Program-made: the position numbers and the translations under genes
Virus record (IMG/VR): IMGVR_UViG_3300042346_000702
Coordinates: 1 to 64,000 of that record
Length of the DNA: 64,000 nt
Direction: 5' to 3' (one strand)
Source of the DNA: a virus
In this document: positions 4,231-31,096 of the stretch, piece after piece
Layout of the letters: each line of letters begins with the position of its first letter
How positions within the stretch are numbered: position 1 is the stretch's first letter
The notes under the pieces: model-generated
Told to the model about the DNA's origin: nothing
What the model saw: the letters and a program-made list of their open reading frames with translations, nothing else
The model's database searches: none

Positions 4231-5469
4231 TTATCCTTTATAATGCGAATTGCGATTTTTGTTTGCGGGTCTAACGAAAGGTTCATGCGATGGAACAATA
4301 GATGCACCCGATGCTTCTTGTGCACATTCACCTGCTGCAGCGGGTCCACCTGGTAAGATACGTTCGTCTTTGTCAGCATCGGTTGGCGTTGTTTCTACTG
4401 CCGCAGTAATCTTACTTCCTTGCATAGCAAATAAACCCAAACTTTTGATATCAACTGTGTCACCAGTCAAACGGGTTTTTGTACCAACTAAGTCTAATGT
4501 ACATCCTGTCGCAGCAAGAGTTGCTCCGGCTTTAATATGTACATTCCCACCCTGAACCCTAGTATCTGCTTCGCTTTTGATGTTGATACCAGTCTTTGCT
4601 TCAAGATTAATGTTACGACCTGCCGCTAAGTTAATGTCTTCTTCTGCTCGCACTGAGATAGACTTTGCCCCATACATATGAATGTGTCCGTCTTCATCAA
4701 GTTCTACCCAAGTATTACCTGAAGCAGTTGATATGTAGATACGTTCGTTAGTATCGTCAAGAATGATTTGATTGCCTTCACAAGTCTTGACTCTTATTCG
4801 ACAGTTATCAGCAGTGTCGTTCATTGTGATGACATGATGACCTGGAGTTACCCAACAATAAGTTTGCGGGTCAAGATACTCAGTTGGGTCAGCCGCTGCC
4901 GGTGCATATCCTTCATTCCCGTCTGGGTGAAGTTTTGGTTGGGCAACTTGTCGTTCACTTACCCCACGAGTTTGAGCGATTGGATTACTTACGTCTCCAT
5001 TGAAAGCTGCACGTAAGTTAGAGTAAGCAGGTTCCAGAGGGTCATACGAGTCGGTAAACGGGCCAACTGTTGTTTCATCAGGTTTCTTATTTCTTCCAGA
5101 AGGTAGTCCTCTATTTCGATGTAAGTCATACGCCGCAGCAAAGAAGAACCTTCGATTAGGATTACCATTCAGAAGAAAGACTAACACTTGAGAATTGAGT
5201 TTAGGTAAGCAATAGAAACCATAAGGTACAGGTCCTTTAGGTGCTTTTCTATTTCGACCAGCTGGGAAGTCATTAGTAACTCCACCAAAAGGTGCTGCAT
5301 ATTCTGCCCAAGGTAATTGGCTAATATTATAAGACTCACCATCTAAAGCTGGACACCATACTTTCATTCTTCCCATTTGATTTGGGTCGTCCGTATCCAT
5401 CACGAAACCATTAGTGATAAATGGAAAATGATTTTGATATCGATTTAGGATTGATTTATTAGTTTGCAT
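4231..5469 (-). CDS. gp5: Baseplate hub spike, T4 gp5-like, without lysozyme domain
   Basis: A 412-aa central-spike protein. Residues about 15-130 form the OB-fold domain seen in gp5 and VgrG-type spikes, with DPNQMGRMKVWCP, a PWAEYAAPFGG strand and a GFYCLPKLNSQVLVFLLNGNP-type strand pair. From about residue 210 to 370 short repeating strands (GNTWVELDEDGHIHMYG, INLAAGRNINLEAKTGINIKSEA) fit an intertwined triple-stranded beta-helix needle. T4 gp5 has a lysozyme domain between these parts; here only about 80 residues of linker are present and no lysozyme motif is seen. Peptidoglycan digestion must therefore come from another protein. The gene overlaps the upstream hub gene by 11 bases, which suggests coupled translation and partnership. 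Confidence 0.85.
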   Translation of the reverse strand: MQTNKSILNRYQNHFPFITNGFVMDTDDPNQMGRMKVWCPALDGESYNISQLPWAEYAAPFGGVTNDFPAGRNRKAPKGPVPYGFYCLPKLNSQVLVFLLNGNPNRRFFFAAAYDLHRNRGLPSGRNKKPDETTVGPFTDSYDPLEPAYSNLRAAFNGDVSNPIAQTRGVSERQVAQPKLHPDGNEGYAPAAADPTEYLDPQTYCWVTPGHHVITMNDTADNCRIRVKTCEGNQIILDDTNERIYISTASGNTWVELDEDGHIHMYGAKSISVRAEEDINLAAGRNINLEAKTGINIKSEADTRVQGGNVHIKAGATLAATGCTLDLVGTKTRLTGDTVDIKSLGLFAMQGSKITAAVETTPTDADKDERILPGGPAAAGECAQEASGASIVPSHEPFVRPANKNRNSHYKG

Positions 5470-7525
5470 TATTCACACCTTCTTGTGCCTTTAGCGTACT
5501 TATTGCACCATAATTATGTTGCATTATTAGTATAAGTTCTTGCGTAAAATCACTTCCGCTAAAAGTATGAACAACTGATTGTATCATATACCAATCATCA
5601 TAAAATAGTTTGACTTTGTATTCATCTACATTACCTTCTTGGTTGAATGGATAATCTCGTGGTCCATATACATTCACTTTAGCGAATTGGGTTTCTCCTA
5701 AAAACTTCTTATCAATCATTTGACGTTCAACAAACTTACGATGTTCAAGATGAGCTTGAACAATACTTCCATTTCCAGTTGCAGCGGTTTCATTCTTAGG
5801 GTCGTATTCCCATTTAGATAATTTGTCAATATAAGATGCATCGCCATTTTCAATATAGTCTTTGACCGAAGTAGTAATTTTTGGAACAGGAGCAATTGCT
5901 TCAACTACGAAGTTAGAAAATAAGTTAGGGTTTCCTCGAATTTTGACACTTGTTGTTCCCATTGCAAAATGCATATCTGCCAAAGTTTGATGAAATGCTT
6001 GCGCATTTTTAAATACTTCTTTTGCTAATGGATTATTCGTAGGTGCAACATCTGCCTGATTAGAACGTTGAGTAGTTGTTTTTGGCGGTAGATACATAGG
6101 CTGATTTTTACCAGGATTCCCAACGAATGTTTTCTTATCAACTTCAGGAGAAAGTTTATCTTTCTTCTTTTGAGATTGGCTTGTAATATCTTTTCCTGTT
6201 TCATAAGGCGCACCTGATGATGTTTCAAGTCCTACAAATAAATTATCTATTTTGATGTTGAAGTCTAATACGTCAGGATTATGTCCTGAATAAAGATAGT
6301 CAAATTCAATTGAACCGTCAGGATTTTTTGCATCTCGTTCCGGTCCGGTTCTTGTGCCTTCACTTACTTTCTTTTGGTCGGCATCTGGGTTTGGCATCTT
6401 ATACTGTATTACATCAAAATGTATAACCATTTCTTCTTCATTTGAAGAAACTGATTGATTGATTTTGAATTTAGTTATTTCATCAACCTTTGATATTTGA
6501 CTAGCCATACCTGTAACTTCAGGACACAATTTCAGTAAGTTTTCTAAGATTTGTTTGACGTCATTAGAAATTTGAGATGAATATACTCCGCTATTTGCCT
6601 TATTATCTTCCATCGATTTTTGAACTTTAGCATACTCTTCTTCAGCCGCCGCTTTTGAACCGTCTCCATAAAAGATGGTTTCTGGAGTTCTATCATTAGT
6701 AGCACATACTGTAAGATAGAACCAATTAGGTGGAATAGTAATCATATAACGAATGATGCGACCTTTTCTTTCAGTCTTATCTTTCTTTTCGACGGGTTGT
6801 CCAGCTTCATCACGAGGTTTACTAACAGGATTAGCTTTTAGATACCATTCACGTGCAGCAACATTTAGTTGGTTTTCAATTGCTTGAACAGCCGTTCCAA
6901 GTAACGAGTTTTCGAACTTGACAGAAAGAACTTTTGGTATTTCTGACATTTGCGGCATTTGGCCGATACCCATAGTCTGAGCACAAAAGCCCATATCATA
7001 AACAGCACCACGAGTTGTGTATTCTGATAAAGTAAACTCTCCACCCATTATCATAGGAATACCAACCGTTGACACATGTTCAGTTGTTCCAGTATCAGTA
7101 TGTCCAATGAAGGTGATATGTAAACAAAAGACTAATCCACTCCCATCCGTTTTTAGCTTATCAAAAGTAAGGTATCTAAAGTAATTGAAGAACCCAACAC
7201 CGGATGGGTCAACAACTTGAATATGAATAAGCCCTTCATTAGTAAGGGTTTGTCCAGCATATTCACCTGAAGCATTCACGAGAGTAGTAAAGGTCACATT
7301 AGCAATTGAGAACTCTGATGTCTTTCTTGAGTCAACAAGTAGATAAACACCTCCACCTATATCATCTCCTAGCTTCTTCCCTGTAACATTTGCTAGGAAC
7401 CCTACCCCATCTGGTTTGCTAGGTGCTAGATATGGTTGAAATGCTTCTGAATTACTCGCAACGGTCATAATGTAATGGATACTATGTGACCTATACTTGT
7501 CTAATGGATTTGCTGGGATGCTCAT
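5459..7525 (-). CDS. Putative baseplate hub protein (gp27-like position)
   Basis: A 688-aa protein with no signal peptide or membrane segment. Its place between gp53 and gp5, with an 11-base overlap with gp5, is where a hub partner of the spike would be encoded, and T4 gp27 forms the trimeric torus that holds gp5. The N-terminal 300 residues are beta-rich. The middle (about 400-520) is charged and low in complexity, rich in Lys, Gly and Pro, which suggests a flexible linker. The C-terminus has a YKVKLFYDDWYMIQSV segment followed by a strand ending in ELILIMQHN, reminiscent of tail-hub folds. No motif proves the assignment; it rests mainly on position and size class. It could also be a large-phage specific hub component. 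Confidence 0.5.
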   Translation of the reverse strand: MSIPANPLDKYRSHSIHYIMTVASNSEAFQPYLAPSKPDGVGFLANVTGKKLGDDIGGGVYLLVDSRKTSEFSIANVTFTTLVNASGEYAGQTLTNEGLIHIQVVDPSGVGFFNYFRYLTFDKLKTDGSGLVFCLHITFIGHTDTGTTEHVSTVGIPMIMGGEFTLSEYTTRGAVYDMGFCAQTMGIGQMPQMSEIPKVLSVKFENSLLGTAVQAIENQLNVAAREWYLKANPVSKPRDEAGQPVEKKDKTERKGRIIRYMITIPPNWFYLTVCATNDRTPETIFYGDGSKAAAEEEYAKVQKSMEDNKANSGVYSSQISNDVKQILENLLKLCPEVTGMASQISKVDEITKFKINQSVSSNEEEMVIHFDVIQYKMPNPDADQKKVSEGTRTGPERDAKNPDGSIEFDYLYSGHNPDVLDFNIKIDNLFVGLETSSGAPYETGKDITSQSQKKKDKLSPEVDKKTFVGNPGKNQPMYLPPKTTTQRSNQADVAPTNNPLAKEVFKNAQAFHQTLADMHFAMGTTSVKIRGNPNLFSNFVVEAIAPVPKITTSVKDYIENGDASYIDKLSKWEYDPKNETAATGNGSIVQAHLEHRKFVERQMIDKKFLGETQFAKVNVYGPRDYPFNQEGNVDEYKVKLFYDDWYMIQSVVHTFSGSDFTQELILIMQHNYGAISTLKAQEGVNNAN

Positions 7526-7530
7526 ATGTA

Positions 7531-7905
7531 TTATAGGACTAATGGAGGGAGGATAGCTTCGCTACTTCTAGCACTATCTATTCCTCCAACTTTTTGGGTC
7601 AATAAGAGTTGAACTCGTTCGTTTGATGGTATCGTTAGCACACGACCGATGAAAGCTTCTTCATACGGGTCTAATAAGTAGTTGTATTGAGCAATGACCC
7701 ACCATAACCCCGGGTCATTGTAGAACCCATAAGCTACTTTGTCTAATCTTCCAGCAGTCGTTTCATTGATAGTATAGAGAACATCACTTGCTTCATCCAC
7801 TGGGAAATTGAAACGACCCCACCATTCTAAACCAATAGGACCGACTTCAGTTAGACCACCTTGAACAAATCGTGATAATTTTTGTTGAACACTTGATGTT
7901 GTCAT
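7531..7905 (-). CDS. gp53: Baseplate wedge protein, T4 gp53-like
   Basis: A 124-aa protein with the core pattern of T4 gp53: a short N-terminal region, then GFYNDPGLWWVIAQYNYL-like residues (about 78-95), in which DPxLWWVIAQxN is the recognisable part, and RVLTIPS near the C-terminus (LysM-like turn). gp53 joins wedges around the hub. It is shorter than T4 gp53 (196 aa) but keeps the conserved middle. The start codon shares one base with the stop of the upstream gene, so the two are likely translationally coupled. Confidence 0.8.
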   Translation of the reverse strand: MTTSSVQQKLSRFVQGGLTEVGPIGLEWWGRFNFPVDEASDVLYTINETTAGRLDKVAYGFYNDPGLWWVIAQYNYLLDPYEEAFIGRVLTIPSNERVQLLLTQKVGGIDSARSSEAILPPLVL

Positions 7906-9338
7906 TAATTACTTTGACCTCTACTGAAAGCCTTAGGAATAGTTTTTTCTGCTGTTGCTGAGTCTATGACTGAGTCTACAAAATCTTTACCTTCATAAAA
8001 TCCTAAAGTGCTAACTGCTTTTTTCAAAGTCGAGGTTGAACTATTCTTTTCTATGATTGCTTTTGCTTTTTGTTCTAATTGTTCTTTACCCCAAGAGCCG
8101 AGTGATGTCGTTGCTTCAGACTTAGCAGTCGACGCATTTGTAGCTGCTGGTGAAGTCGGTGTAACACCTGAAGAATTAGCTGGTGTTGGTGCCGCATCAA
8201 TTCCTTTTGGAGTTTCTGCAGGTTTAGCAGTTGGTTCTCCAGCTGAAGGAGTTGCTCTCGAACCATCATAAGCACCTTTCATATCACCTTTCTTGTAAGC
8301 ACTTAAACTAAATCCACTATATTCTCGTGGCGACCAAGCTTCTTTCAATGATATGCTTACGTTCATAATAACAGGAAATGCTTGACCATCTGATGTATGT
8401 AAGTAATCAACATCATTAGGCCAATCAATGTTTAGCTGTGTCAAAACGACTGAAATGTTTCCAATGTTCTTACTGCCATACGCATTCAGTTCTAATAAGT
8501 CAGGTGGTGCTCCTAACATATTCCTATTCTCTGCTTCAGTTCCATAACCATAATATGGCATCAACCAGCTTCGTAATACATTGAGCACTCGTTGGTTTTC
8601 AGTTGCTTCAGAAATGTTTCGTGAAATTAGTTTGATTGAACCAATAGACCAACCTCTCGCTGCAGTATGATTATACTTCAACATCGAACCAGGATGATGA
8701 GCAGGTGTCACATCATCATACATTGCACCACGTTCTTCAGAAATAGTTGGAGTCACATTGAAATAGACAATCTCACCACTTGTAATAGACTTTAGCTCAA
8801 CTCCTTGACGTTTAGGACCACCTGCGTCTGAAGCAATTCCGCTACTCAATAAGGCTGAAGTCACATCAGTCGAACCGATAATCTTATCCACAAAACCAGG
8901 TTTCAAACTATCAAAATTGAGTGAGTCTCCAATTCCCTTGATAGCATTCTCAGTTACCGATGAAAAGTTTCCGTTAGTCAATGATTTGAACGATTGAGGT
9001 ATCATATTGTTTAAAGCATCGCTACTTCCTAATGCACCAGAAATCATATGCCCTGGAGTATTAGAATCGCCTGAAAAGAAGTCACCGATGTTGTCCATCA
9101 TTTTAGATGCACCCCATTTGATTTGACTTGCAACTTCACCAAGCTTTTCGAAAGGCTGTGTCAAGTCAGACATGCTCGGTAATGAAGGCAGGTCACTTTT
9201 TATTGCATCCCACGTAGAACCGGTGCCGTTATTTGCCGCATGCCAAGCCCTTGCTTGTTCAATAGTATATGCCTGACCATTAGGTCTATTGATTTGACTA
9301 GTCGGATAGATTGGTGGAAAAGAAGCATCCCAAGTCAT
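7905..9338 (-). CDS. Putative tail-tube cap/baseplate junction protein (gp48/gp54-like)
   Basis: A 477-aa protein. Residues about 1-170 are helical and Gly/Ser rich. Residues about 180-350 form a beta-rich domain containing a ISVVLTQLNIDWPNDVDYLH stretch and an ISLKEAWSPREYSGF turn, the kind of domain found at the interface of tail tube and baseplate. The last 110 residues are a Pro/Thr/Ala-rich linker followed by a short helix. Position upstream of gp53 and the hub genes in the baseplate operon supports a gp48 or gp54 role, that is, tube initiation on the hub. Sequence likeness to T4 gp48/gp54 is weak by eye, so the name is an inference from context. Confidence 0.45.
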   Translation of the reverse strand: MTWDASFPPIYPTSQINRPNGQAYTIEQARAWHAANNGTGSTWDAIKSDLPSLPSMSDLTQPFEKLGEVASQIKWGASKMMDNIGDFFSGDSNTPGHMISGALGSSDALNNMIPQSFKSLTNGNFSSVTENAIKGIGDSLNFDSLKPGFVDKIIGSTDVTSALLSSGIASDAGGPKRQGVELKSITSGEIVYFNVTPTISEERGAMYDDVTPAHHPGSMLKYNHTAARGWSIGSIKLISRNISEATENQRVLNVLRSWLMPYYGYGTEAENRNMLGAPPDLLELNAYGSKNIGNISVVLTQLNIDWPNDVDYLHTSDGQAFPVIMNVSISLKEAWSPREYSGFSLSAYKKGDMKGAYDGSRATPSAGEPTAKPAETPKGIDAAPTPANSSGVTPTSPAATNASTAKSEATTSLGSWGKEQLEQKAKAIIEKNSSTSTLKKAVSTLGFYEGKDFVDSVIDSATAEKTIPKAFSRGQSN

Positions 9339-9341
9339 AAC

Positions 9342-10073
9342 TTATTCCCCTTCGTTATCGTCAGTAAACCCAAATGACTTTTGAAGTTTCTTGAACATTA
9401 ATCGTGCAAGTGTCTTATTATGTTCTAAACCAACAATAGTTGCAAATTCGTCTTCATACCCAAGCTCTACCGCTCGACGTGCAACTGAACCACTTATCTC
9501 GTCATCATTCAAGTTCCCTGACGTATGTAGTTTTTCCATTGCTCTATCTAAAGCGGATTGCTTATCAGCTTTCTTGGTCTCAACCGCATCGTCCGTTCTA
9601 TCAAGCCCTGGAATGATGATATGTTCAATAGGCTTATCATCTTCAGTCTTGAAGCCTTTGTCTAACATATCTTTATAACCCTTAGCCCTGTCAGAACCCG
9701 CACCAATTGCAATCGGTTCGAACCCTGCATCACGAATAGCACCAAGTGCAAAGAACGCACTTTTAGAAGTCAAGAACTCTACACCGTTAGCCTTACCTGA
9801 TGCTTGCATATAAGTAATACGTTCATCAGCGGTAAGGGGGTTTTTCTTCTTATCTAAAGATGACTTCTCGCCAGCAATCACAACAACTACAGGTTTAGCT
9901 TCAATGTCTAAATGAGGGTTCTTACGAATGAACTCTTTCATTTTGTTGATTACTTTATAGTGGCCTTGAGTGGGCGGATTTAGTCTGCCTATCATAAACG
10001 CCACTCTTTTATTCTGCATTGGTGGCAAAGCTTCAAATAGGAATTCTTCTTCTGTTTCGTTTAGTAATGACAT
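9342..10073 (-). CDS. Cytidylyltransferase-like nucleotidyltransferase
   Basis: A 243-aa protein with a nucleotidyltransferase fold of the NMNAT/cytidylyltransferase group. Residues 24-45 carry the dinucleotide-binding strand and the TxGH form of the HxGH motif (GRLNPPTQGH, 29-38); a late ISGSVARR segment (193-200) matches the ISSTxxR motif that binds the triphosphate. The family transfers NMP to a phospho-substrate, for example making NAD or CDP-compounds; the substrate here is unknown. Odd points: it is the first gene of a late baseplate operon, not a metabolic operon, and its first 20 residues contain FLFE followed by ALPP, which looks like a head-protease cleavage site after a targeting peptide. 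It may be a virion-packaged enzyme, though that is inference. Confidence 0.75.
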   Translation of the reverse strand: MSLLNETEEEFLFEALPPMQNKRVAFMIGRLNPPTQGHYKVINKMKEFIRKNPHLDIEAKPVVVVIAGEKSSLDKKKNPLTADERITYMQASGKANGVEFLTSKSAFFALGAIRDAGFEPIAIGAGSDRAKGYKDMLDKGFKTEDDKPIEHIIIPGLDRTDDAVETKKADKQSALDRAMEKLHTSGNLNDDEISGSVARRAVELGYEDEFATIVGLEHNKTLARLMFKKLQKSFGFTDDNEGE

Positions 10074-10107: not shown

Positions 10108-10115
10108 TATTTATC
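10108..10115 (-). promoter_or_regulatory. Late promoter (GATAAATA) for the baseplate operon
   Basis: The minus strand reads GATAAATA 35 bases upstream of the nucleotidyltransferase start. The minus-strand genes from 10073 down to 206 are tightly packed, so this is the likely start of the whole baseplate operon. Confidence 0.6.
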
Positions 10116-10218: not shown

Positions 10219-10782
10219 ATGACCAAATCAATTTTAATTTTTGAACCTAATTCTAACGATACACCTTTAGAAGAACCAACAGCTTTAGAACCTCAGATAG
10301 AACAAAAAACAAAGAAAGAAAAACCACCTAAACCTCCAAAATTCAAACGTCCAAAGGCAACTTCTACTGAAGGGCATTATGTAACCAATGCCGTCTTATT
10401 GCCTGAAATGCTCCGTGCTAAAGCTCTCGGCCGAGTAACACCCGAACTCGCCGAAATGTTTTTGAAGATTGCTACTCGTTATTCAATGAGTAAGAATTAT
10501 GCTCATCTATCATCTATTCGTGATGATATGATTTCCAATGCAGTTCTCAATCTACTTCAAAACGGTCTCAAATTCAACCCTGAAAAATCTAGTAATCCAT
10601 TCAGTTATACTACGCAATGTTGTTATCATAGTTTCTTAATGGTTATTGCAGAAGAAAAGAAACAACGCGAAATTCGAGATACATTACTTTTAGATAATGG
10701 AGTAAATGCATCGCTTGGACATATGGAAAAAGAACACGATAGTTATCGCGAAAAACATGCGGAGTTCTTTGATAATGAGTAA
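10219..10782 (+). CDS. gp55: Late transcription sigma factor, T4 gp55-like
   Basis: A 187-aa protein close in length to T4 gp55 (185 aa), the sigma70-related factor that lets host RNA polymerase recognise TATAAATA. Family features seen are YVTNAVLLPEM (about residues 54-64), a helix with RDDMISNAVLNLLQNGLKF and FNPEKSSNPFSYTTQCCYHSFL (about 110-140), which correspond to the region-2-like core. The first 45 residues are acidic then Pro/Lys rich. A good ribosome binding site (AAGGGAG) lies 10 bases before the ATG. Its stop overlaps the gp47 start, as in the T4 order 55-47-46. It fits the many TATAAATA-type boxes in this window. Confidence 0.88.
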   Translation: MTKSILIFEPNSNDTPLEEPTALEPQIEQKTKKEKPPKPPKFKRPKATSTEGHYVTNAVLLPEMLRAKALGRVTPELAEMFLKIATRYSMSKNYAHLSSIRDDMISNAVLNLLQNGLKFNPEKSSNPFSYTTQCCYHSFLMVIAEEKKQREIRDTLLLDNGVNASLGHMEKEHDSYREKHAEFFDNE

Positions 10783-11860
10783 TGATATTGCTTTCATTGA
10801 CATTTGTACAGAATACGGTATTCATATTTCATCAATCAGTAAAATTGCAATGTTTACTGATATTCATTGGGGAAATCATCATAATTCAGTTCAACATAAT
10901 ATAGATTGTGCAACTTATATTGAATGGTTTATAAAACAAGTTGCAAAGAATGATGTTGATTGTATCTTCTTTCTTGGAGATTGGTTTGAACATCGTGGTG
11001 CAATCAATAGTTTGACTGCACACTATTCAATTAACGCTCTTAGACGATTAAACTCGTTAGGTATTCCAATATTAATGTTAGTAGGGAATCATGATTTATA
11101 TCATAGACATAATCGAGAAATCCATTCAGCGGAAACTTTCAAAGAATTGAACAATGTTCATATTATCGATGCTCCGGCTAAACTTAATGATATGTTATTA
11201 TTGCCTTATCTTTTCAAAGATGAATATCCATTAGTTGCACCACAAGTTAATAAATCTAAATATGTCTTTGGTCATTTTGAGTTTAGAAACTTTTATTTGA
11301 CTGGTACTAATGCAAGAGCCGAACATGGATATCATCATAAATTATTTGATGGTCCAACTCATATCTTCTCTGGTCATTATCATAAAAGACAAGCAACTGA
11401 TAATGTTATCTACATAGGTAATCCGTTCGGCACTTCATATGCAGATGCTGGCGATTATGAACGAGGTTGTTGTATCTTAAATGTTAGTACAGCTGAAGTA
11501 TCTTTTATTGATTATGAAGCAGGTCCAACTTATCTAAAAACTGAGTTAAGCTCGTTACTTGATGAATTAGTAAAACCTAAGAATAAAGCACGAGTTAGAT
11601 GTTTATTAGATGTGGAAGTAACTTACTCTGAAGCTCAAGCACTAAAGCAAGAGTTTATGGAGTTATACGACTTACGTGAGTTAATACTTGAAGAAAATGT
11701 CAAAGAACAACAAGCGGCTCTTGAAGAAAGTATTGCTGAGCTTGAAGAATTAGACTTAAGTTCTTTAGATGAAACTGTTATGAAACTTATTGAAACTGGG
11801 GTTCAAGCAACATCAACTATTAACCCTACCACATTAGTATCAATCTACAAACTATTATAG
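10775..11860 (+). CDS. gp47: Recombination nuclease subunit, T4 gp47-like (Mre11/SbcD family)
   Basis: A 361-aa metallophosphoesterase that with gp46 resects DNA ends for recombination-dependent replication. The five phosphoesterase motifs are present: FTDIHWG (D29, H31), FLGDWFEHRG (GD at 68-69), VGNHDLYH (103-110), FGHFEF (about 165-170) and SGHYHKR (199-205). The start at 10775 is chosen over an upstream in-frame ATG at 10706 because it has GGAG ten bases before it and overlaps the gp55 stop by 8 bases, typical for coupled translation. The gp46 gene follows four bases after the stop. Length fits T4 gp47 (339 aa). Confidence 0.93.
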   Translation: MSNDIAFIDICTEYGIHISSISKIAMFTDIHWGNHHNSVQHNIDCATYIEWFIKQVAKNDVDCIFFLGDWFEHRGAINSLTAHYSINALRRLNSLGIPILMLVGNHDLYHRHNREIHSAETFKELNNVHIIDAPAKLNDMLLLPYLFKDEYPLVAPQVNKSKYVFGHFEFRNFYLTGTNARAEHGYHHKLFDGPTHIFSGHYHKRQATDNVIYIGNPFGTSYADAGDYERGCCILNVSTAEVSFIDYEAGPTYLKTELSSLLDELVKPKNKARVRCLLDVEVTYSEAQALKQEFMELYDLRELILEENVKEQQAALEESIAELEELDLSSLDETVMKLIETGVQATSTINPTTLVSIYKLL

Positions 11861-11864
11861 AATT

Positions 11865-13616
11865 ATGCAAAGATTAAAAGCAATAAGATTACGTTTTAGA
11901 AACTTCATGTCATTTGGTAACCAATGGACTGAAATCAATTTTGAAGACTCTACTTCTACTTTCATTTACGGAGAAAACATAGATACTAATACTAGAAATG
12001 GTGCTGGTAAAACTTCAATTCTAAATGCTATTGTATATGCCGTCTATAATCGAGCTTTTGATAATATCACCTTACCTCGACTAATCAATATCACTAATGC
12101 GGCAAAGAATACTTTGATGGAAGTTGAGTATCTTTTTTCTAAAGGTTCTGACATATATGAAATCAAACGTAAGCGAGGTGAATCTCACGGTGTAACTTTA
12201 GAAGAAAATGGAATTGATATTACTCCAGATAGTATTAACGAAACTGATGCATTGATAGAACGTATCTATGGTAGAAGTTATGAACTTTTTACTAGAGTAA
12301 TTGTCTTTGCTGGTAATACTACGCCATTCCTTGATTTACCGGTTAGTTTGCAACGAGCTCATATTGAAGAACTATTCAACATTACAGTCTTAAGCGAAAA
12401 AGCTCAAAAGCTGAAGAAGGTTATTCAAACTAGTGAAAGTGATGCAAAGGTAGAAGAAGCCTTATTGAAAGAACGAGAAACTTCGTCAAAGCTGAAGCAG
12501 AAACGTTTAGCAGAGTTTGAACAAAAGGTCATTAGTTGGGAAGAACAGAAAGAAGCTAAGCTAATAAGTTATCGCAAGCAATTAGCTTCAGTAGAAGGCA
12601 TTGACTTTACTAATGAACGAGAACTATTTGAACGTAAGACAAAGTTGTCAGAAGAACAACAACGAACCTCTTCAACTAAGGCATCGCTAACACGAGCTAA
12701 AGAACGACTTGATAAAGATATTGCAACACTCCTAAAACAGCAACAGCATTTGGAAGATGACAAGTGTCCGTATTGCTTACAGAACATGGCAGATGCAGCT
12801 TCTAAGCTACATGACATTGAAGAGAAGCTGTTAGCTCTTGTTGCTTCTTTAGAAGAGCATGAAGAAAAACTAGCGACAGAAACGACTAAGCTAACTAACA
12901 TCCAAGCTGAATTGAAAGAAGTCAACGAAAGTATGACATATGATAATCTTCCAGTGTTACTTGATACATTAGCAAACATGAATACCTTACAAGTTCAATT
13001 ACGCGAACTCGAACTAGCAGAAAATCCATACTTTGAAACATATGAACAAATGGAGTCAGAAGTAAATGAAAGTTCTATTAGCTATGAGAAACTAGATGAA
13101 TTGAAAAGCACCATTGAACACCAACAGTTTCTTTTGAAACTTTTGACTGATAAGAATAGCTTCTTAAGACGTCGCATTATCAGTCGAACTATCCCGTTTC
13201 TAAATCTTAGAATGAATACTTATGCTAAGCAATTAGGATTACCACATGTCATACAGTTCAAAGATGATATGACTTGTATGGTGTCTCAGTATGGACGAGA
13301 ACTTGATTTTGGTAACTTATCCGCTGGCGAAAAGAAACGTGTCAATCTTGCAATGTCATTAGCTTTTAGAGATGTCTTACATCATTTACATGCAAAAGAT
13401 AACTTACTGTTTGTCGATGAAATTGATGCTTCGTTATGTGCATCCGGGGTTGAAAGTGTTGTTGCTTTACTAAACCAAAAGACAAAAGAAGATGAACTAT
13501 CAACCTGGGTCATTATGCATCGTGAAGGTGTAGAAGATAAGTTTGATAGAAAGATGTTGGTCATAAAGGAGAATGGCTTTAGTACCGTTAGTTTGCAAAG
13601 CGAAGAGTGTAAATAG
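11865..13616 (+). CDS. gp46: Recombination nuclease ATPase, T4 gp46-like (Rad50/SbcC family)
   Basis: A 583-aa SMC-like ATPase, close to T4 gp46 (560 aa). Walker A is NGAGKTS (45-51), the ABC signature is LSAGEKKRVNLA (about 484-495) and Walker B is LLFVDEIDAS (about 513-522). Two coiled-coil arms (about 175-290 and 310-430) flank a zinc hook CPYC (about 301-304) that would pair two molecules. It works with gp47 in the preceding gene. All key residues are intact. Confidence 0.95.
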   Translation: MQRLKAIRLRFRNFMSFGNQWTEINFEDSTSTFIYGENIDTNTRNGAGKTSILNAIVYAVYNRAFDNITLPRLINITNAAKNTLMEVEYLFSKGSDIYEIKRKRGESHGVTLEENGIDITPDSINETDALIERIYGRSYELFTRVIVFAGNTTPFLDLPVSLQRAHIEELFNITVLSEKAQKLKKVIQTSESDAKVEEALLKERETSSKLKQKRLAEFEQKVISWEEQKEAKLISYRKQLASVEGIDFTNERELFERKTKLSEEQQRTSSTKASLTRAKERLDKDIATLLKQQQHLEDDKCPYCLQNMADAASKLHDIEEKLLALVASLEEHEEKLATETTKLTNIQAELKEVNESMTYDNLPVLLDTLANMNTLQVQLRELELAENPYFETYEQMESEVNESSISYEKLDELKSTIEHQQFLLKLLTDKNSFLRRRIISRTIPFLNLRMNTYAKQLGLPHVIQFKDDMTCMVSQYGRELDFGNLSAGEKKRVNLAMSLAFRDVLHHLHAKDNLLFVDEIDASLCASGVESVVALLNQKTKEDELSTWVIMHREGVEDKFDRKMLVIKENGFSTVSLQSEECK

Positions 13617-21061: not shown

Positions 21062-21682
21062 ATGTCACAACAAATATTACTTACTGAAGACCTAACTCCT
21101 GATCAAGCTAACTTAATTGAAAGCATTGATGATGGCAAAAACTATTATCTTTCTGGCATTATGATGCAAGCAGGCGTTATCAATGGAAATGGCCGCGAGT
21201 ATCAATTAGCAGAAATGTTGAAAGTTGTTGAAGAAAACTCTAAAAAGATTGCAAGCGGTCAGCTAATCATGGGTGAGCTGACCCACCCTAACAATATCGC
21301 TATCAACCTTGCCAACGTATCTCATGCTATTACTGAAATGAGAATGGATGGTTCAAACGTAGTTGGTAAAATGAAACTTTTGAATACTCCATCTGGTCAA
21401 ATTGCAAAAGCGATTCTTGAAGGTGGTGTTAGACTTGGTGTTTCTTCTCGTGGTACAGGTTCAGTCGGTGCTGACGGTAAAGTATCTGGCTTTAGCTTTG
21501 TGACTGTTGATATCGTTGATAATCCTTCAGCTCCTGATGCTCGCCCTAACCTTGTTCGTGAAAGCTTAGAAAATCAAAAGATAGTAACCTTAGCTGAAAT
21601 TGTGGTAGAAGACAAAAGTGCTCAAAAGCATTTAGAAAAAGAAATCAAAAAATTCTTACTATCAATAGTTACAAAAAAATAA
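21062..21682 (+). CDS. gp21: Prohead core protease, T4 gp21-like
   Basis: A 206-aa serine protease (T4 gp21 is 212 aa) that matures the prohead by cleaving scaffold, capsid and internal proteins after Glu in sites such as (L/I)xE. The family features are the GELTHPNN motif (His75), the GVSSRGTG catalytic serine turn (S128/S129) and the VTVDIVDNPSAPDA strand with downstream Asp. It is preceded by GGAG and follows the portal gene. Downstream lie the proposed substrates: internal proteins, core proteins, scaffold gp22 and capsid gp23. Confidence 0.93.
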   Translation: MSQQILLTEDLTPDQANLIESIDDGKNYYLSGIMMQAGVINGNGREYQLAEMLKVVEENSKKIASGQLIMGELTHPNNIAINLANVSHAITEMRMDGSNVVGKMKLLNTPSGQIAKAILEGGVRLGVSSRGTGSVGADGKVSGFSFVTVDIVDNPSAPDARPNLVRESLENQKIVTLAEIVVEDKSAQKHLEKEIKKFLLSIVTKK

Positions 21683-21703: not shown

Positions 21704-22180
21704 ATGAAACCAGAAAAATCAATGAAAGAATTGTTTGAAATTGCTGGTATTAAAGATATTGATAAAGCTCTATCTTTGATTACCGAAGTTAATCTACGAG
21801 AAGTCGACCTTACTACAAAACAAATTGCCGATAAAATAAGTGCAGCATTTGAAAAAGATTTTGGTTCGCTTAGAACCAGCGAAACTGAAAACCTGTCGAA
21901 TAAAATGTATAAGCTAATTGTAGATAAAGATTTTCTTGATGGAAAAACACCTGTTGCTAGATTTAGAATACCAGTTATTACAAAAGCAAATGATTTGCAT
22001 AACATTCACAATTCTTATGAAGCATTTAACAAAATACTAGATAAGTTCTACAATTCTTTACGTAATGAAGGATATCTTATAACTCAACCAAAAGGCGGGT
22101 ATATTAAGGGTGATACTTGGGAAGGCAATGGAACAGTTGGAAATATCATGACATTTTTTGTAGCAGGAAAACCGGAGTAA
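21704..22180 (+). CDS. Probable internal head protein 1 of the array
   Basis: A 158-aa protein of unknown fold. It begins with a tag shared by its neighbours: SMKELFEIAGIKDIDKALSL, followed by ITE, a likely gp21 cleavage point (about residue 29). The rest (DKISAAFEKDFGSL to FFVAGKPE) has no recognised domain and is unlike the next three genes. Position between the prohead protease and the scaffold, plus a cleavable N-terminal tag, matches T4 internal proteins that enter the head and are injected with DNA. The function of the mature part is unknown. Confidence 0.65.
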   Translation: MKPEKSMKELFEIAGIKDIDKALSLITEVNLREVDLTTKQIADKISAAFEKDFGSLRTSETENLSNKMYKLIVDKDFLDGKTPVARFRIPVITKANDLHNIHNSYEAFNKILDKFYNSLRNEGYLITQPKGGYIKGDTWEGNGTVGNIMTFFVAGKPE

Positions 22181-22186
22181 GTCAAA

Positions 22187-22813
22187 ATGAAATCAGAAAA
22201 ATCAATGAAAGAGCTGTTTGAGATTGCAGGTATTAAGGATATTGACTCAGCTCTGTCTTTGATTACTGAGGCATCAACTTCATCAGCAGGTTGGGCAGAC
22301 TGGAATGATACTTTACGAGATGCGTTACAGATAATACTTATTGGTAAAGAACTTACCCGAGTTACTTTATCTGACCCATCATCAGCAGTCATTATAAAAA
22401 ATGTTGCATTTAATTCTTTTCGTGACCCTGAGAAATTGTTAATCATTTATGATAAAACTATAGATTGGCATCCGCTAAGAGAGCATAAAGAATATCAACA
22501 AGGCATGCTCAAGAAGATAAAAAGCTTTTTACCAAAAGGTAGTAAAGTGGGTGGATATGAAAGTCAAAACTATCAATCACAAGGGATGATAGGCATTGAT
22601 GGAGTAAAAATAAAAGCTCAATATCCTGGCAATTATGTTGGCGGTTTATTGTCTAATGTCAAAGATAAAGTTCCGGTTATAGTTGGAGCTAAAGCATCAG
22701 AACAATTATTAGAGGCAGCAAAGATTGTCAATGACGCCATTAAGAATAACGTAAATGTCATTGCATGCCAACGAGAACTAATTGAAAAGAATTTAGACGA
22801 GTACGCAGAATAA
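22187..22813 (+). CDS. Probable internal head protein 2 of the array
   Basis: A 208-aa protein. Its first 28 residues are nearly the same as the previous gene's tag (KSMKELFEIAGIKDID, then SALSLITE followed by A, a likely gp21 site). After the tag comes a variable domain of about 110 residues, then a conserved C-terminal domain with a VGGLLSNVKDK loop, an Ala-rich helix and a closing IACQRELIEKNLDEYAE. The last domain is shared with the next two genes, so the three are paralogues. The stop overlaps the next start (TAATG). Confidence 0.65.
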   Translation: MKSEKSMKELFEIAGIKDIDSALSLITEASTSSAGWADWNDTLRDALQIILIGKELTRVTLSDPSSAVIIKNVAFNSFRDPEKLLIIYDKTIDWHPLREHKEYQQGMLKKIKSFLPKGSKVGGYESQNYQSQGMIGIDGVKIKAQYPGNYVGGLLSNVKDKVPVIVGAKASEQLLEAAKIVNDAIKNNVNVIACQRELIEKNLDEYAE

Positions 22814-22823
22814 TGAAAATTAA
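22793..22823 (+). repeat. Array junction repeat, copy 1
   Basis: A 31-base sequence spanning the last codons of one array gene, the TAATG overlap and the first codons of the next (starts TTAGACGAGTACGCAGAATA). It is identical at 23386-23416, and its first 21 bases recur at 23988-24008, while the gene interiors have diverged. Confidence 0.9.
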
Positions 22824-23406
22824 CGAACTATTTACTGAAGCAGCACCAACTAAGTTTAATAAAGACCTATACGTTTTAAATTATATAAAAGAAAAACTTA
22901 TTGGAAAAACATTAGTGATGCATAATGAAAACATGGCAGTACGTGATTCACGTAGTATGATGAAATTAGAAATAACTGATATTGATATATGGAAACGTGG
23001 ATGGAATGATTATCAGATTTATGTAAATGGACTTAAGAAGATGCCTATATGGCATAATCCAAGTAAGAAAGCGCTAATGCATCCCTATGGAGATAATTCT
23101 ATAATTTCTCAAATTAAAGTACTTCTCGGAACTGATATGAGTTTTTCTGTTAGTTGGACTGAAAATGGGCAACAATCAAAAAACTCTTTAGGAGTTTTTA
23201 TTGATATGTGGGAGTATGATAATAATTTTAAAGGGGGCTTATTGCATCATCTTAAATCTAAAAAACCAATTTTAGTTGGCCCAAATGCCAGTAGTGAATT
23301 AAGAATGTCGGCTGATATTATCAATTCTTGTATTCAAAAAAATACCGACATCGTTGCATGTCAACGAGCATTAATTGAAAGAGACTTAGACGAGTACGCA
23401 GAATAA
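22813..23406 (+). CDS. Probable internal head protein 3 of the array
   Basis: A 197-aa paralogue of the proteins before and after it. It starts with a short tag MKINELFTE followed by AAP, consistent with gp21 cleavage after residue 9. It keeps the pattern YIKEKLIGKTL in the first domain, the KGGLLHHLKSKKPILVG loop and the C-terminal VACQRALIERDLDEYAE. The interior shares little with its neighbours. Its start codon overlaps the stop of gene 2, and its stop overlaps the start of gene 4. Confidence 0.65.
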   Translation: MKINELFTEAAPTKFNKDLYVLNYIKEKLIGKTLVMHNENMAVRDSRSMMKLEITDIDIWKRGWNDYQIYVNGLKKMPIWHNPSKKALMHPYGDNSIISQIKVLLGTDMSFSVSWTENGQQSKNSLGVFIDMWEYDNNFKGGLLHHLKSKKPILVGPNASSELRMSADIINSCIQKNTDIVACQRALIERDLDEYAE

Positions 23407-23416
23407 TGAAAATTAA
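23386..23416 (+). repeat. Array junction repeat, copy 2
   Basis: Identical over 31 bases to 22793-22823. It joins the end of array gene 3 to the start of gene 4 through the same TAATG overlap. Confidence 0.9.
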
Positions 23417-24008
23417 TGAACTGTTTGAAAAGGTAACTTTACAAGAAGCATCGTTAGGATTTGCTGAGCATAATGATATTCTATTGTTTTTTATTCAAAA
23501 GAAACTTGTCAAAAAACAATTGAAAACCAGTAAATCGCTAATCATTGATGAAGTAACCAAAATAGCTTCTCCTGATAGTAAAGAATATAACATTAGTTAT
23601 ACAATTCAAGGTGAAGAACCAGGTCCACGTAAACATCAAGTAGATTACAATGAAGATGCGGAAAATTTAGCAATTTCAAAAGAAAAACAATTATTTGGAA
23701 AATTAATTGAACCATTAATTGCTAACGGGACACAAGTTGAAGTTTTACGTCAATCACGAAATTTTGTTAAAGGCAATGGTTCTTTTGGCACAACAATACA
23801 GGTGCCAATTCAATACGACAATAAGTTTGTTGGTGGTTTATTGCGTCATGTCAAAGAAGGAATCCCTGTTATCATTGATGAAAATGCAATACCTGCGTTA
23901 AAACAAGCAGCAAAAAAAATAAATGAATATGTTTTAAAAAATAACACAGACATTATTGCATGTCAACGAGAAATGATTGAGCGTGATTTAGACGAGTACG
24001 CAGAATAA
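23406..24008 (+). CDS. Probable internal head protein 4 of the array
   Basis: A 200-aa paralogue of array genes 2 and 3. The N-terminus is MKINELFEKVTLQE followed by A, again a plausible protease site (after residue 14). It shares FIQKKLVKKQL with the helix of its relatives, the VGGLLRHVKEG loop and the C-terminal IACQREMIERDLDEYAE. The middle (about 35-115) is specific to this gene. It is the last of the three related genes; the array then changes to different families. Confidence 0.65.
   Translation: MKINELFEKVTLQEASLGFAEHNDILLFFIQKKLVKKQLKTSKSLIIDEVTKIASPDSKEYNISYTIQGEEPGPRKHQVDYNEDAENLAISKEKQLFGKLIEPLIANGTQVEVLRQSRNFVKGNGSFGTTIQVPIQYDNKFVGGLLRHVKEGIPVIIDENAIPALKQAAKKINEYVLKNNTDIIACQREMIERDLDEYAE
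23988..24008 (+). repeat. Array junction repeat, partial copy 3
   Basis: Identical to the first 21 bases of the junction repeats at 22793 and 23386, ending at the stop codon of array gene 4. The downstream part (ATGAAAATTAA) is missing because a different gene family follows after a 41-base gap. Confidence 0.85.
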
Positions 24009-24049
24009 CAAAATTTAACCCCCGAACACTTCATACGGAGAATTATAAA

Positions 24050-24427
24050 ATGAAAGACTTTGAAAAACTAATGAAAATTGCTGGAATTACTAATATCAAT
24101 GAAAATGCTTTCAGCCAAAGCATTTATAGTGATGAAAAAGATTTTGAAACTAAAGAAAAAGCAATCAAAGGAAAACTCTTTAATGATCTTAAATCAAAAG
24201 ATGAAAAGAAAATTGCATATGACTTAATATCAGAAGCAGAGCTTCTTCTTGGTCAATTCAATATGATGGTAAACGATTTTGATAAGTATCTTGGTGTTCC
24301 TAAAACTGAAAGATTTTACCATGAAGTAGTACGTTTTGGTGAGGCACTTCAGGCTCATTGTAAAAAAATAACCGGGTTTGACGGCGTTCAATCCTTAAAT
24401 TTACATGTACATAGCTTAAAGGACTAA
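24050..24427 (+). CDS. Probable internal head protein 5 of the array
   Basis: A 125-aa mostly helical protein. The N-terminus MKDFEKLMKIAGITNINE carries the IAGI tag seen in the first genes of the array, with NINE a weak protease site. The body has two long helices and an LQAHCKKITGFDG segment. A GGAG ribosome binding site lies 10 bases upstream. No known domain was recognised; its place in the head-gene run is the main clue. Confidence 0.6.
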   Translation: MKDFEKLMKIAGITNINENAFSQSIYSDEKDFETKEKAIKGKLFNDLKSKDEKKIAYDLISEAELLLGQFNMMVNDFDKYLGVPKTERFYHEVVRFGEALQAHCKKITGFDGVQSLNLHVHSLKD

Positions 24428-24431
24428 GATA

Positions 24432-24731
24432 GTGAAAACTCTTCAACAACTATTTGAAATTGCTGGCATCAAAGACATTGATAAAGCAATGGCAATTCTG
24501 AATGAAGACGACTTTCACACAATACTTTACAAGATTGATAAATGGATGCCTAGTGATTTATCAATTCAAGATGAGTATGATGATTTAGTTAGTAAAAAAC
24601 ATAAATCTTCAGCTGATGTTGAAGATTTAGCAGCTTTATTGTATAGAGAAGCAGATGAAGAAGTATTAAAGAAATACGGTTTTAGTGGTAATTGGAAAGC
24701 TTTAGCTAATTATATTATTACTAATAAATAA
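24432..24731 (+). CDS. Probable internal head protein 6 of the array (GTG start)
   Basis: A 99-aa protein that starts with GTG four bases after the previous stop. The tag TLQQLFEIAGIKDIDKAMAI followed by LNE (about residue 26) is close to those of array genes 1 and 2. The rest is helical and acidic (EYDDLVSKKHKSSADVEDLAALLYREADEEV), which suits a charged core protein. No function is known beyond the positional inference. Confidence 0.6.
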   Translation: MKTLQQLFEIAGIKDIDKAMAILNEDDFHTILYKIDKWMPSDLSIQDEYDDLVSKKHKSSADVEDLAALLYREADEEVLKKYGFSGNWKALANYIITNK

Positions 24732-25799: not shown

Positions 25800-26720
25800 A
25801 TGGATGAAATTTTACAAAAGTTGTTAGAAACAGACCTACTTAGCGAAGACACAAAAACCGAAATCTCAGAAGCATGGGCTGAAGCTGTTGAAGCTAAGCG
25901 TGCAGAAATTAGAGAAGAAGTATCTTTGGAAGTTCGCGCAGAGTTAGCTGAACAATTTGTTGTTGCTCGTGAAGCATTAGTCGATAAGGTTGATGCATTT
26001 GTTACTGAACAACTAAAACAATCATACATCGAATTGAAAAGCGATATCGAACGTTTTCGCGATTTGGAAGCTGAGTTCGCTGGTAAACTAGTTGAAGAAA
26101 AGAAAAGATTAGCAGAAGAAGTTGAGTCTGAAATCGAGTCTTTAGTTGATAAATTGGATTCTTTCTTGGAAGTTAGACTTTCAGAAGAATTTGAAGAAAT
26201 GAAAGAAGATTTAGAAGTTGTAAAACAAAATGACTTCGGTAAACGTGTATTTGAAGCGTTCGTAACCGAATATTCAAAATCATATGTTGATGAAACTTCT
26301 ATTCAATCACAATTAAGTATTGCAGAAAGTAAATTGGCTGATGCTGAAAAACGTATGCAAGAAGTTGAAACTGAAAAAGCACAATTAGTTCGCGAAGCTA
26401 AAATGCAAGACGTGTTAAGACCACTTTCTGGTTCAAAACGTGAGCAAATGAGTTTTGTTTTACAAAACGTTGAAACTGAAAAATTAGAAGAAGCTTATGG
26501 TTACTTCATCGGTCGTATTTTGAAAGAAGAAGCTGCTGCACCTAAATCATCCGCTACTGTCGCAAAAGACAAAGTTATTTCTGAAGACAAAGCTTTAGAA
26601 GACGCAGTCGTTCTTGCAACTGGTGATGATGAAACTAAACAGCCAATCATTTCTGAACAACAACAAAAATCTATTGCTGATTTAGCGTTCTTAAAAAGAA
26701 TTGCCGGCATAACATCTTAA
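25800..26720 (+). CDS. gp22: Prohead core scaffold protein, T4 gp22-like
   Basis: A 306-aa acidic, almost wholly helical coiled-coil protein, as expected for the scaffold on which the capsid assembles before being degraded by gp21. LLE (8-10) and ISE (about 20-23) are possible cleavage sites. The C-terminus ends FLKRIAGITS, sharing the IAGI motif with the array proteins. The start at 25800 is chosen because GGAGG (25790-25794) lies five bases before it; a TTG in frame at 25788 would overlap that site. Position between gp21 and gp23 and a length close to T4 gp22 (269 aa) support the call. Confidence 0.88.
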   Translation: MDEILQKLLETDLLSEDTKTEISEAWAEAVEAKRAEIREEVSLEVRAELAEQFVVAREALVDKVDAFVTEQLKQSYIELKSDIERFRDLEAEFAGKLVEEKKRLAEEVESEIESLVDKLDSFLEVRLSEEFEEMKEDLEVVKQNDFGKRVFEAFVTEYSKSYVDETSIQSQLSIAESKLADAEKRMQEVETEKAQLVREAKMQDVLRPLSGSKREQMSFVLQNVETEKLEEAYGYFIGRILKEEAAAPKSSATVAKDKVISEDKALEDAVVLATGDDETKQPIISEQQQKSIADLAFLKRIAGITS

Positions 26721-30325: not shown

Positions 30326-30341
30326 TGATAACTAGTTATCA
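30326..30341. promoter_or_regulatory. Palindromic operator, copy 1
   Basis: TGATAACTAGTTATCA is a perfect 16-base palindrome. It overlaps the stop codon of the metallopeptidase gene and ends 10 bases upstream of the minus-strand -35 box at 30310-30315. The same sequence class sits at the same distance from two other early promoters, at 31137 and 32247. Confidence 0.7.
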
Positions 30342-31096
30342 AAATCGACAATATGTTGATGGAGCTTCTTGAGGAACCGCTTCCAAATGCGTTGGTCAAG
30401 TCGTTCTTCTGAAGTGCCAAAGTGTGTCCAATACTTGGTGATAGATGTGCCAATGGTGTCTTGTTTGGAAGTCTCGTTCTTTAGGTTATCTATAGAGTGC
30501 AAAATTTTGTTCTTGTCATTGTCAAATCTATTCATTAGCATCTCTGCTGTATTGACAGCAAGTGCTTCAATTTCTGATGGGTTGCTAAGGTAAGGCTTTA
30601 TCATCACTTCCCCTTGGTCATCATGATAGTTAGAACGTTTGATGCTCTTTTCTGTAGGAGTTCTTTGGTTTTGAACTGCATGGGTTAGTTCATGCAGTAG
30701 GATAGCAATGGCAAGAGAAATGAACTTGTCTCGCTTAGCATCTCCAAAGTAGGTTGCTTTATTGACCAAATCGAATGGTATGTAAAACTCTAACCCACCA
30801 TACCCGGCTGCGAAAGAACCAATACGTGCATGTCCGCTGTCGAAGTAAGCTTCTTTAGCCCCTTGGATGACAACAGTCTTTACACCAAACTCTTTTAGCT
30901 CTTGTGCAATTTTAAGTTCAAGCTTTTTGATGGCTTGGATGCTTTCACTTATTTGTTCTAATGGTTTATAATGTTCATCAAAGATTTCAAGCTTACCGGA
31001 AAGCTTTTCAAGCTCTAAGCGGATGATTTTGTTCAACTTTGCTCGTATATCGGTAAGATTGATTTTTTCAGTTAGGAAGAGTTCGCGTACTTTCAT
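30332..31096 (-). CDS. Putative metallopeptidase with possible head-targeting tag
   Basis: A 254-aa protein with a zincin HExxH motif LHELTHAVQ (H135, E136, H139) in a hydrophobic helix. The third zinc ligand was not identified with certainty; several Asp/Glu/His follow in the 160-175 region (SNYHDDQGE). There is no signal peptide. The N-terminus MKVRELFLTE followed by K is much like the tags of array genes 3 and 4, so it may be packaged in the head and cleaved by gp21, although it lies outside the array. The substrate is unknown. It is read from the right of the early cluster, divergent from 31197. Confidence 0.6.
   Translation of the reverse strand: MKVRELFLTEKINLTDIRAKLNKIIRLELEKLSGKLEIFDEHYKPLEQISESIQAIKKLELKIAQELKEFGVKTVVIQGAKEAYFDSGHARIGSFAAGYGGLEFYIPFDLVNKATYFGDAKRDKFISLAIAILLHELTHAVQNQRTPTEKSIKRSNYHDDQGEVMIKPYLSNPSEIEALAVNTAEMLMNRFDNDKNKILHSIDNLKNETSKQDTIGTSITKYWTHFGTSEERLDQRIWKRFLKKLHQHIVDFDN

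Follow-up and report, generated by a model that had tools for sequence, protein, structure and literature searches.

Why does a nucleotidyltransferase gene lead a phage baseplate operon, and does its product carry a cleavable N-terminal tag that would send the enzyme into the head? The question is raised by a locus in the window, by which we mean the whole stretch of 64,000 nucleotides analyzed here, taken from a 113.5-kb viral contig, perhaps a fragment, of a large T4-like phage. We found that the nucleotidyltransferase gene leads a minus-strand run of genes (9342, 7905, 7531, 5459, and 4231), which are as follows.

9342..10073, minus strand: nucleotidyltransferase gene, 243 amino acids, ATG start (open reading frame, profiles, alignment, and model)
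7905..9338, minus strand: next gene after the nucleotidyltransferase, 477 amino acids, virion structural protein family phrog_12050
7531..7905, minus strand: gp53-like baseplate wedge protein (profile searches)
5459..7525, minus strand: virion structural protein of 688 amino acids (weak phrog_11190 match)
4231..5469, minus strand: gp5-like baseplate hub protein (profile searches)

This confirmed the statement of the initial annotation that the gene starts a baseplate operon: it has a late heptamer of its own, and gp53-like and gp5-like genes lie downstream. The genes at 10219-13616 stand opposite this run. By sequence they look like gp55, gp47, and gp46, and the annotation of Agrobacterium phage Atu_ph07 has gp46 at the matching place. 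We found the same gene order in Atu_ph07, in Sinorhizobium phage Phosso, and in those loci of the enzyme's clade that were viewed in full (L006, L008, L114, L115, and L116). The nearest major capsid proteins are those of Xanthomonas XacN1 and Stenotrophomonas CM1/RAS14 (55-57%), which were absent among the organism groups of the nucleotidyltransferase matches at an E limit of 1e-3. In cyanophages, the homologous gene lies near mazG and head genes, away from baseplate genes. Leading a baseplate operon is special to the window lineage and the Agrobacterium and Sinorhizobium jumbo phages and is not shared by cyanophages.

TxGH and ISGSVARR motifs had been noted previously in this gene. We placed both, together with two further family motifs, in the protein.

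9960..9971, minus strand: TQGH, residues 35-38, nucleotide-binding motif within GRLNPPTQGH (alignment)
9834..9845, minus strand: KNPL, residues 77-80, family motif, which aligns with NP of the archaeal NMNAT MJ0541
9687..9698, minus strand: GSDR, residues 126-129, family motif (alignment)
9474..9497, minus strand: ISGSVARR, residues 193-200, C-terminal nucleotide-binding motif (alignment: all 40 rows have S194 and R199)

We used a 40-row family alignment whose members are 23-87% identical to the window nucleotidyltransferase. R30, P33, P34, G37, H38, P79, L80, G126, S194, R199, and F210 were invariant, and T35 was kept in at least 90% of the rows. Because these positions are invariant or nearly so, TxGH and ISGSVARR are real catalytic motifs. 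One close relative (L008:5986-6714) reads ILRGQPPTSGH where others read GRxQPPTxGH and has lost the conserved G preceding R. Profile searches matched the window enzyme to phrog_3041 (E 8.6e-17; 61.7 bits) and phrog_395 (E 2.6e-13; 51.5 bits) over residues 18-240, which covers the catalytic domain. The catalytic motifs of the phage cytidyltransferase family (GR..P..GH, NPL, G.DR, and S....R) are present, and the match to Pfam CTP_transf_like was sub-threshold at 20.6 bits (cut-off, 21). The AlphaFold2 model (pLDDT 88.9) resembled PPAT 6b7a (Z 12.3; 2.9 Å over 152 residues) and NMNAT 1m8f (Z 12.1; 2.8 Å over 152 residues). Judged by its modeled fold and its motifs, the window protein is a nucleotidyltransferase.

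A heptamer of the T4 late promoter type lies 41 nt upstream of this gene's start codon.

10108..10114, minus strand: ATAAATA

We take this sequence to be the late heptamer of T4 without the initial T. It occurs at 16 sites in the window, 12 of which are followed within 100 nt by the start of a gene on the same strand; among 20 other A5T2 heptamers, which served as the control in the window, the best had 2 of 6 sites preceding genes. Of 30 distinct clade regions upstream of the nucleotidyltransferase gene, 25 contained ATAAATA, compared with a mean of 1.7 and a maximum of 6 when these regions were shuffled (500 shuffles). The position of the heptamer and its conservation in the clade indicate that the gene is very probably expressed late, together with virion genes. 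ATAAATA also serves as a marker of late transcription units in the window.

The N terminus of the protein has two features (here and below, a slash marks a known or proposed cut).

10032..10073, minus strand: proposed cleavable head-targeting propeptide, residues 1-14 (clade-conserved L/I-X-E)
10029..10040, minus strand: codons for L12-F13-E14/A15, proposed prohead protease site

The enzyme starts MSLLNETEEEFLFE/ALPP, in which L12-F13 followed by E14 fits L/I-X-E. T4 gp21 cleaves after L/I-X-E (PMC9026906). The strict ipII/ipIII-like motif (aromatic-xx-aromatic-[LI]xE) does not occur in the window enzyme, which was classed as LxE and not as T4-style. A review describes the capsid-targeting sequence as common to IPII and IPIII and not to other core proteins. 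Judged within its own record alone, the tag motif stands out only slightly: [FYHW][LIMV]xE was present in the first 20 residues of 7 of 125 called genes versus 2.4% of interior windows (113.5-kb record). Compared with the 87% identical relative L006, the first 20 codons had 3 silent and 0 replacing changes, and the remaining codons had 71 silent and 32 replacing changes. A lone L/I-X-E site proves little, and we therefore collected the clade of the window enzyme.

The clade set consisted of 53 loci (L195-L245, L274, and L275) plus a row for the window. Its sources were successive searches that yielded 79 loci, then two (one new), and then one. L246-L273 were left out as distant (identity below 44%, covering part of the query), and L232, L238, and L242 were not extracted by the motif pattern and are in no clade count. 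Because near-identical contigs recur, the 51 clade rows gave 32 distinct segments. Start codons were ATGs 14-30 residues before GR, with a Shine-Dalgarno-like sequence preferred; for the clustered counts below, the first ATG in that range was taken.

We found that 31 of the 32 distinct N-terminal segments have [LI]xE before the first strand of the fold, the one segment without it being L224. None of 20,000 composition-keeping shuffles reached 31/32 (mean, 12.2; maximum, 23), figures that are not strict probabilities, given that the sequences are related. When the sequences were clustered by catalytic identity, the counts were 29/30, 23/24, and 13/14. The last of these was obtained at 65% catalytic identity, and no shuffle of 5,000 reached it. 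Other spacings were far rarer in the 32 segments ([LI]E, 15; [LI]xxE, 15; [LI]xxxE, 6; [VMFA]xE, 3). As a control, we looked at the N termini of other genes in the same loci and found [LI]xE in 30 of 190; the gp55-like neighbor had it in 11 of 28 and the first downstream gene in 2 of 31. The P2 residue in the clade was of 11 kinds (F, Y, L, E, N, V, T, I, S, A, and K), and the tag spanned a variable 17-29 residues before GR. The longer open frame of L115 reads TLYE/D at the proposed cut site. A fixed L and E, a free middle residue, and a changing segment length make up the pattern that the protease rule predicts. It is the relatives, not the window sequence alone, that give the case for a tag its strength.

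A candidate cutter and further candidate substrates are encoded elsewhere in the window.

21062..21682, plus strand: T4 gp21-type prohead protease (Peptidase_S77), the proposed cutter (Pfam PF03420, 8.1e-24; phrog_207, 5.6e-54)
21704..24731, plus strand: six small array proteins with N-terminal L/I-X-E

Of 8 long contigs of the clade, 7 encode an S77 protease that scored above the cut-off. Some of the array sites are followed by A (LQE/A and ITE/A; FTE/A has F at P3). The initial annotation held that FLFE/ALPP of the enzyme matches the gp21 sites of the array proteins. This is right insofar as E14 after L12-F13 fits L/I-X-E, but only [LI]xE is common to them, and the MKxxELF-type starts differ.

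Several of the array proteins start with ELFEIAGIKDI or MKIAGITNI, and a scaffold-like protein at 25800-26720 ends with LKRIAGITS at its C terminus. The shared IAGI motif might mark a contact between scaffold and cargo. The minus-strand protein at 30332-31096 starts MKVRELFLTE/K, contains HELTH, and has only weak Pfam matches; it is possibly a tagged metallopeptidase. Two more proteins with T4-style tags are encoded in the record outside the window. One, at G000:C1:88785-89546 (L112:4785-5543), starts MGTSFKQYLHE/K, has 253 amino acids, and matches NTP_transf_2 below threshold (17.8 of 21 bits), which would make it a possible second head-packaged nucleotidyltransferase. The other, at G000:C1:102300-103763 on the minus strand, is a 487-amino-acid protein starting MSISFKSFLLE/T.

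The N termini of cyanophage homologues resemble the capsid-targeting sequence of T4 ipII/ipIII (MKTYQEFIAE/A). They include those of S-SM1 (MKKFSAFLNE/A), S-SCSM1 (MKSFLQFLKE/A), S-CREM2 (MKNFSSFLTE/A), S-SZBM1 (MRFRQFIIE/A), syn9 (MKKFSAFLSE/A), and P-TIM40 (MRFLDFIKE/A). The strict motif was present in 3 of 69 tested coding sequences of S-SM1, the nucleotidyltransferase among them, and F-x-x-F-[IL]-x-E-A was seen by eye in 80 of 80 S-SZBM1-like viral loci. We also examined a diverse set of 80 family loci found via the catalytic motif, from which L163, cut at the contig end, was dropped; 27 of the 79 complete N termini have the strict motif. A loose [LIMVF]xE test over this set was abandoned. 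It was also passed by 196 of 489 neighboring open reading frames and discriminates poorly because many neighbors seem tagged and [LIMVF]xE is common; the clade [LI]xE test took its place. In L141, L142, L190, and L170 an extra domain precedes the enzyme, yet a T4-like tag stands at the extreme N terminus. Atu_ph07, Phosso, P-HM2, S-CAM3, K64-1, XG4, and Paride have untagged members, and the Atu_ph07 and Phosso proteins have no N-terminal extension despite the same gene order. On a quick tree, the window clade formed one supported group (99), and the three tag classes required 17 changes; because the classes change so many times, we conclude that the tag is gained and lost.

Homologues have been reported in virions. 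The "citidylyltransferase" T4-GC190 was found in virions of S-SM1 but not in those of S-PM2 (PMC3037559). The enzyme was found with 2 peptides in S-SZBM1 virions (PMC9146016) and with 3 unique peptides and 11.2% coverage in S-CREM2 virions (PMC10665884). It was also present, under the name NMNAT, in S-SCSM1 virions, and S-CBWM1 is cited alongside (PMC9602691). The authors left it possible that the enzyme is either virion carried or carry-over (PMC10665884 and PMC9602691). We found that 4 of 4 virion-detected homologues whose sequences were examined are tagged. The S-PM2 copy is untagged and has the second half of DUF6267 at its N terminus. In the open-access PMC literature, we found no paper linking a capsid-targeting sequence to the phage cytidyltransferase family.

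We propose that the enzyme carries a gp21-type cleavable tag, is packaged in the head and cut, and enters the host with the DNA, where it would carry out nucleotidyl transfer on entry. In this model, a soluble nucleotidyltransferase would have a propeptide (residues 1-14) that acts like the T4 internal-protein capsid-targeting sequence. The protein would be made late from its own ATAAATA promoter, a sequence that is present and predicted to be active, and the propeptide would bring it into the prohead scaffold core. The gp21-type protease, which like the site is seen in the window, would then cut after L12-F13-E14, giving a mature enzyme that starts ALPPMQNKRVAF. Like the T4 internal proteins and Alt, the mature enzyme would stay in the head and enter the host with the DNA. 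Given the fold and motifs seen, it would then, immediately on entry, attach AMP or CMP to a small phosphorylated molecule. Head targeting and cleavage, as suggested in the initial annotation, gain support from the 31/32 [LI]xE count, the 25/30 late heptamers, the S77 protease, and the tagged cyanophage virion homologues; the strict T4-style motif is missing. The tags of the relatives and the cyanophage homologues likewise back packaging in the head, and injection itself is suggested by analogy with the T4 internal proteins. We consider the proposal as a whole probable. We go no further because the strict motif is missing, the N-terminal helix is confidently modeled, and the Atu_ph07 and Phosso proteins are untagged. 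The exception L224, the strict count of 27/79, the many neighbors that pass the loose test, the low peptide counts in cyanophage virions, and the nondetection in S-PM2 also speak against it.

The initial annotation also suggested that the enzyme acts on a nucleotide or cofactor pool; NMNAT is the name usually given to it. Nucleotidyl transfer is backed by the fold and motifs, and the reading of NMN as the substrate is weakened by scores and by a survey of NAMPT genes. An NMN adenylyltransferase, which would be compatible with packaging, might give the phage an NAD+ supply against NAD-depleting defenses. The best named sequence models are indeed NMNAT (PRK01153, 8.3e-6), and the best PDB profile match is the archaeal NMNAT MJ0541 (2.4e-5), but the scores against NMNAT models fell below their cut-offs (25.5 versus 127 bits and 18.7 versus 181.2). 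NadM carries HxGH, and MJ0541 reads FHKGH at the aligned position; the window enzyme has no HxGH and reads TQGH instead. For CoaD-type PPAT, the modeled fold gave Z 12.3 with 6b7a, and no PPAT model was found among the NCBIfam matches at E up to 0.1. With PPAT and NMNAT tied near Z 12, the fold cannot tell which substrate is used.

All 4 giant records tested contained NAMPT-family genes, which first looked supportive of an NMN/NAMPT pathway. However, these giants have a second CTP_transf_like gene, located within about 2-7 kb of their NAMPT gene, and only 1 of 21 other records containing the cytidyltransferase family gave a NAMPT match. NAMPT was not found in the window's own 113.5-kb record, a fragment. 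Because of the other CTP_transf_like gene near NAMPT and the 20 of 21 records without NAMPT, we do not claim NMN as the substrate, and we regard an NMN adenylyltransferase as possible though doubtful. Most likely, the substrate is a phosphorylated nucleotide or cofactor precursor; our first guess is that ATP is used together with a nucleotide or cofactor precursor resembling NMN or phosphopantetheine.

A different explanation for the conserved L and E is that the N-terminal segment is a structural or contact helix, with the enzyme itself remaining in the cytosol as an ordinary late protein, unpackaged. In the AlphaFold model, residues 6-14 form a helix and the block of residues 11-20 has a mean pLDDT of 89, which would fit a structural role for the tag segment; conservation also extends to the LPPM/APMG stretch that follows the cut site. 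In contrast, the segment is variable in length and in its P2 residue, and it is absent from Atu_ph07, Phosso, P-HM2, S-CAM3, and K64-1, from which it follows that the fold does not need it. In addition, cyanophage homologues with a different-looking tag and the same cut rule were found in virions, as cited above. We think a purely structural role unlikely.

The published detections could also be carry-over of an abundant late protein, with the tag resemblance due to chance. The peptide counts are low (2 and 3), and the authors themselves raised contamination, but the clade tag statistics and the tags on 4 of 4 examined virion-detected homologues make this very unlikely. Finally, as the leader of a baseplate operon whose gene order is kept in L114, L115, L116, L006, L008, Atu_ph07, and Phosso, the enzyme might be a baseplate or tail-associated protein, but cyanophage family members adjoin mazG and head genes instead and a prohead protease site would be useless in a tail, so that there is hardly any chance of this.

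If the enzyme is head packaged, it may have company in other phages. DUF6267 (PF19782; T4-GC71) adjoins or is fused to the enzyme in cyanophages and pelagiphages and is often tagged. We found it in 13 of 13 such records and in none of 12 others, which included the window clade; it was not found in the window's own record. In S-PM2 (L013 4791-6570), DUF6267 is split over two open reading frames, the second half being fused to the enzyme, and no tag was seen on the fused frame. In pelagiphage HTVC008M, a zeta-toxin/PNK-like kinase gene and one more gene lie between DUF6267 and the enzyme. A DUF6267 model (L164:1451-2677) had a pLDDT of 81, with the tag at pLDDT 26, in contrast to the helix of the window enzyme. 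RNA and DNA ligases made up 48 of its best 50 structure matches (Z 7.8 down to 5); Foldseek gave no match in PDB at E up to 0.001. K58, D60, G61, G374, and V376 are invariant, and E373 and K387 are nearly so. From the model and the KxDG and EGxV residues, DUF6267 looks like an RNA-ligase-type covalent nucleotidyltransferase, which we offer as a lead.

Many T4-like phages might pack a tagged kit for nucleotide chemistry into their heads; on entry it would act on host RNA or nucleotides, repairing or modifying them ahead of phage gene expression. We hold this idea to be rather improbable at present. If it is true, the kit would hold the nucleotidyltransferase in all of them, DUF6267 too in cyanophages and pelagiphages, and a PNK/zeta-like kinase in one pelagiphage, with a possible use against RNA-cutting or NAD-depleting defenses. 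The cyanophage papers could not tell packaging from contamination (PMC10665884 and PMC9602691), and a conserved prohead protease site offers a mechanism. If our proposal for the window enzyme holds, an adenylyl- or cytidylyltransferase would join the few known enzymes injected with phage DNA, from a family that is common in marine viral contigs. Reading tags from sequence would be a way to list injected proteins.

Among known systems, T4 ipII and ipIII share with the window enzyme a short N-terminal propeptide ending in L/I-X-E/A, a gp21-type protease, and a late promoter. Unlike them, the window tag has no MKTYQEF-like first half, and its cargo is an enzyme of nucleotidyltransferase fold. The window enzyme is NMNAT/PPAT-like, which we take to be a fold and a chemistry other than those of the ADP-ribosyltransferase T4 Alt. 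The two would be alike as head-carried enzymes with an N-terminal gp21 cut, proposed here for the window enzyme; Alt is a head-packaged, injected ADP-ribosyltransferase (PMC9958956 and PMC9026906). The cyanophage "cytitidyltransferase" T4-GC190 (phrog_395 and phrog_3041) has the same profile and motifs, and its homologues were detected in virions. Compared with it, the proteins of the window clade are short, carry about 25 extra residues ahead of ISGSVARR, lead a baseplate operon, and have the tag L-F-E and not F-x-x-F-L-x-E. NadM NMN adenylyltransferase and CoaD phosphopantetheine adenylyltransferase are similar in fold (Z about 12) and in their GR/GH and SGxxxR-type motifs, whereas they are 12-18% identical to the window enzyme, which stays below the NMNAT cut-offs. 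The window enzyme mixes GR as in NadM with TxGH as in CoaD.
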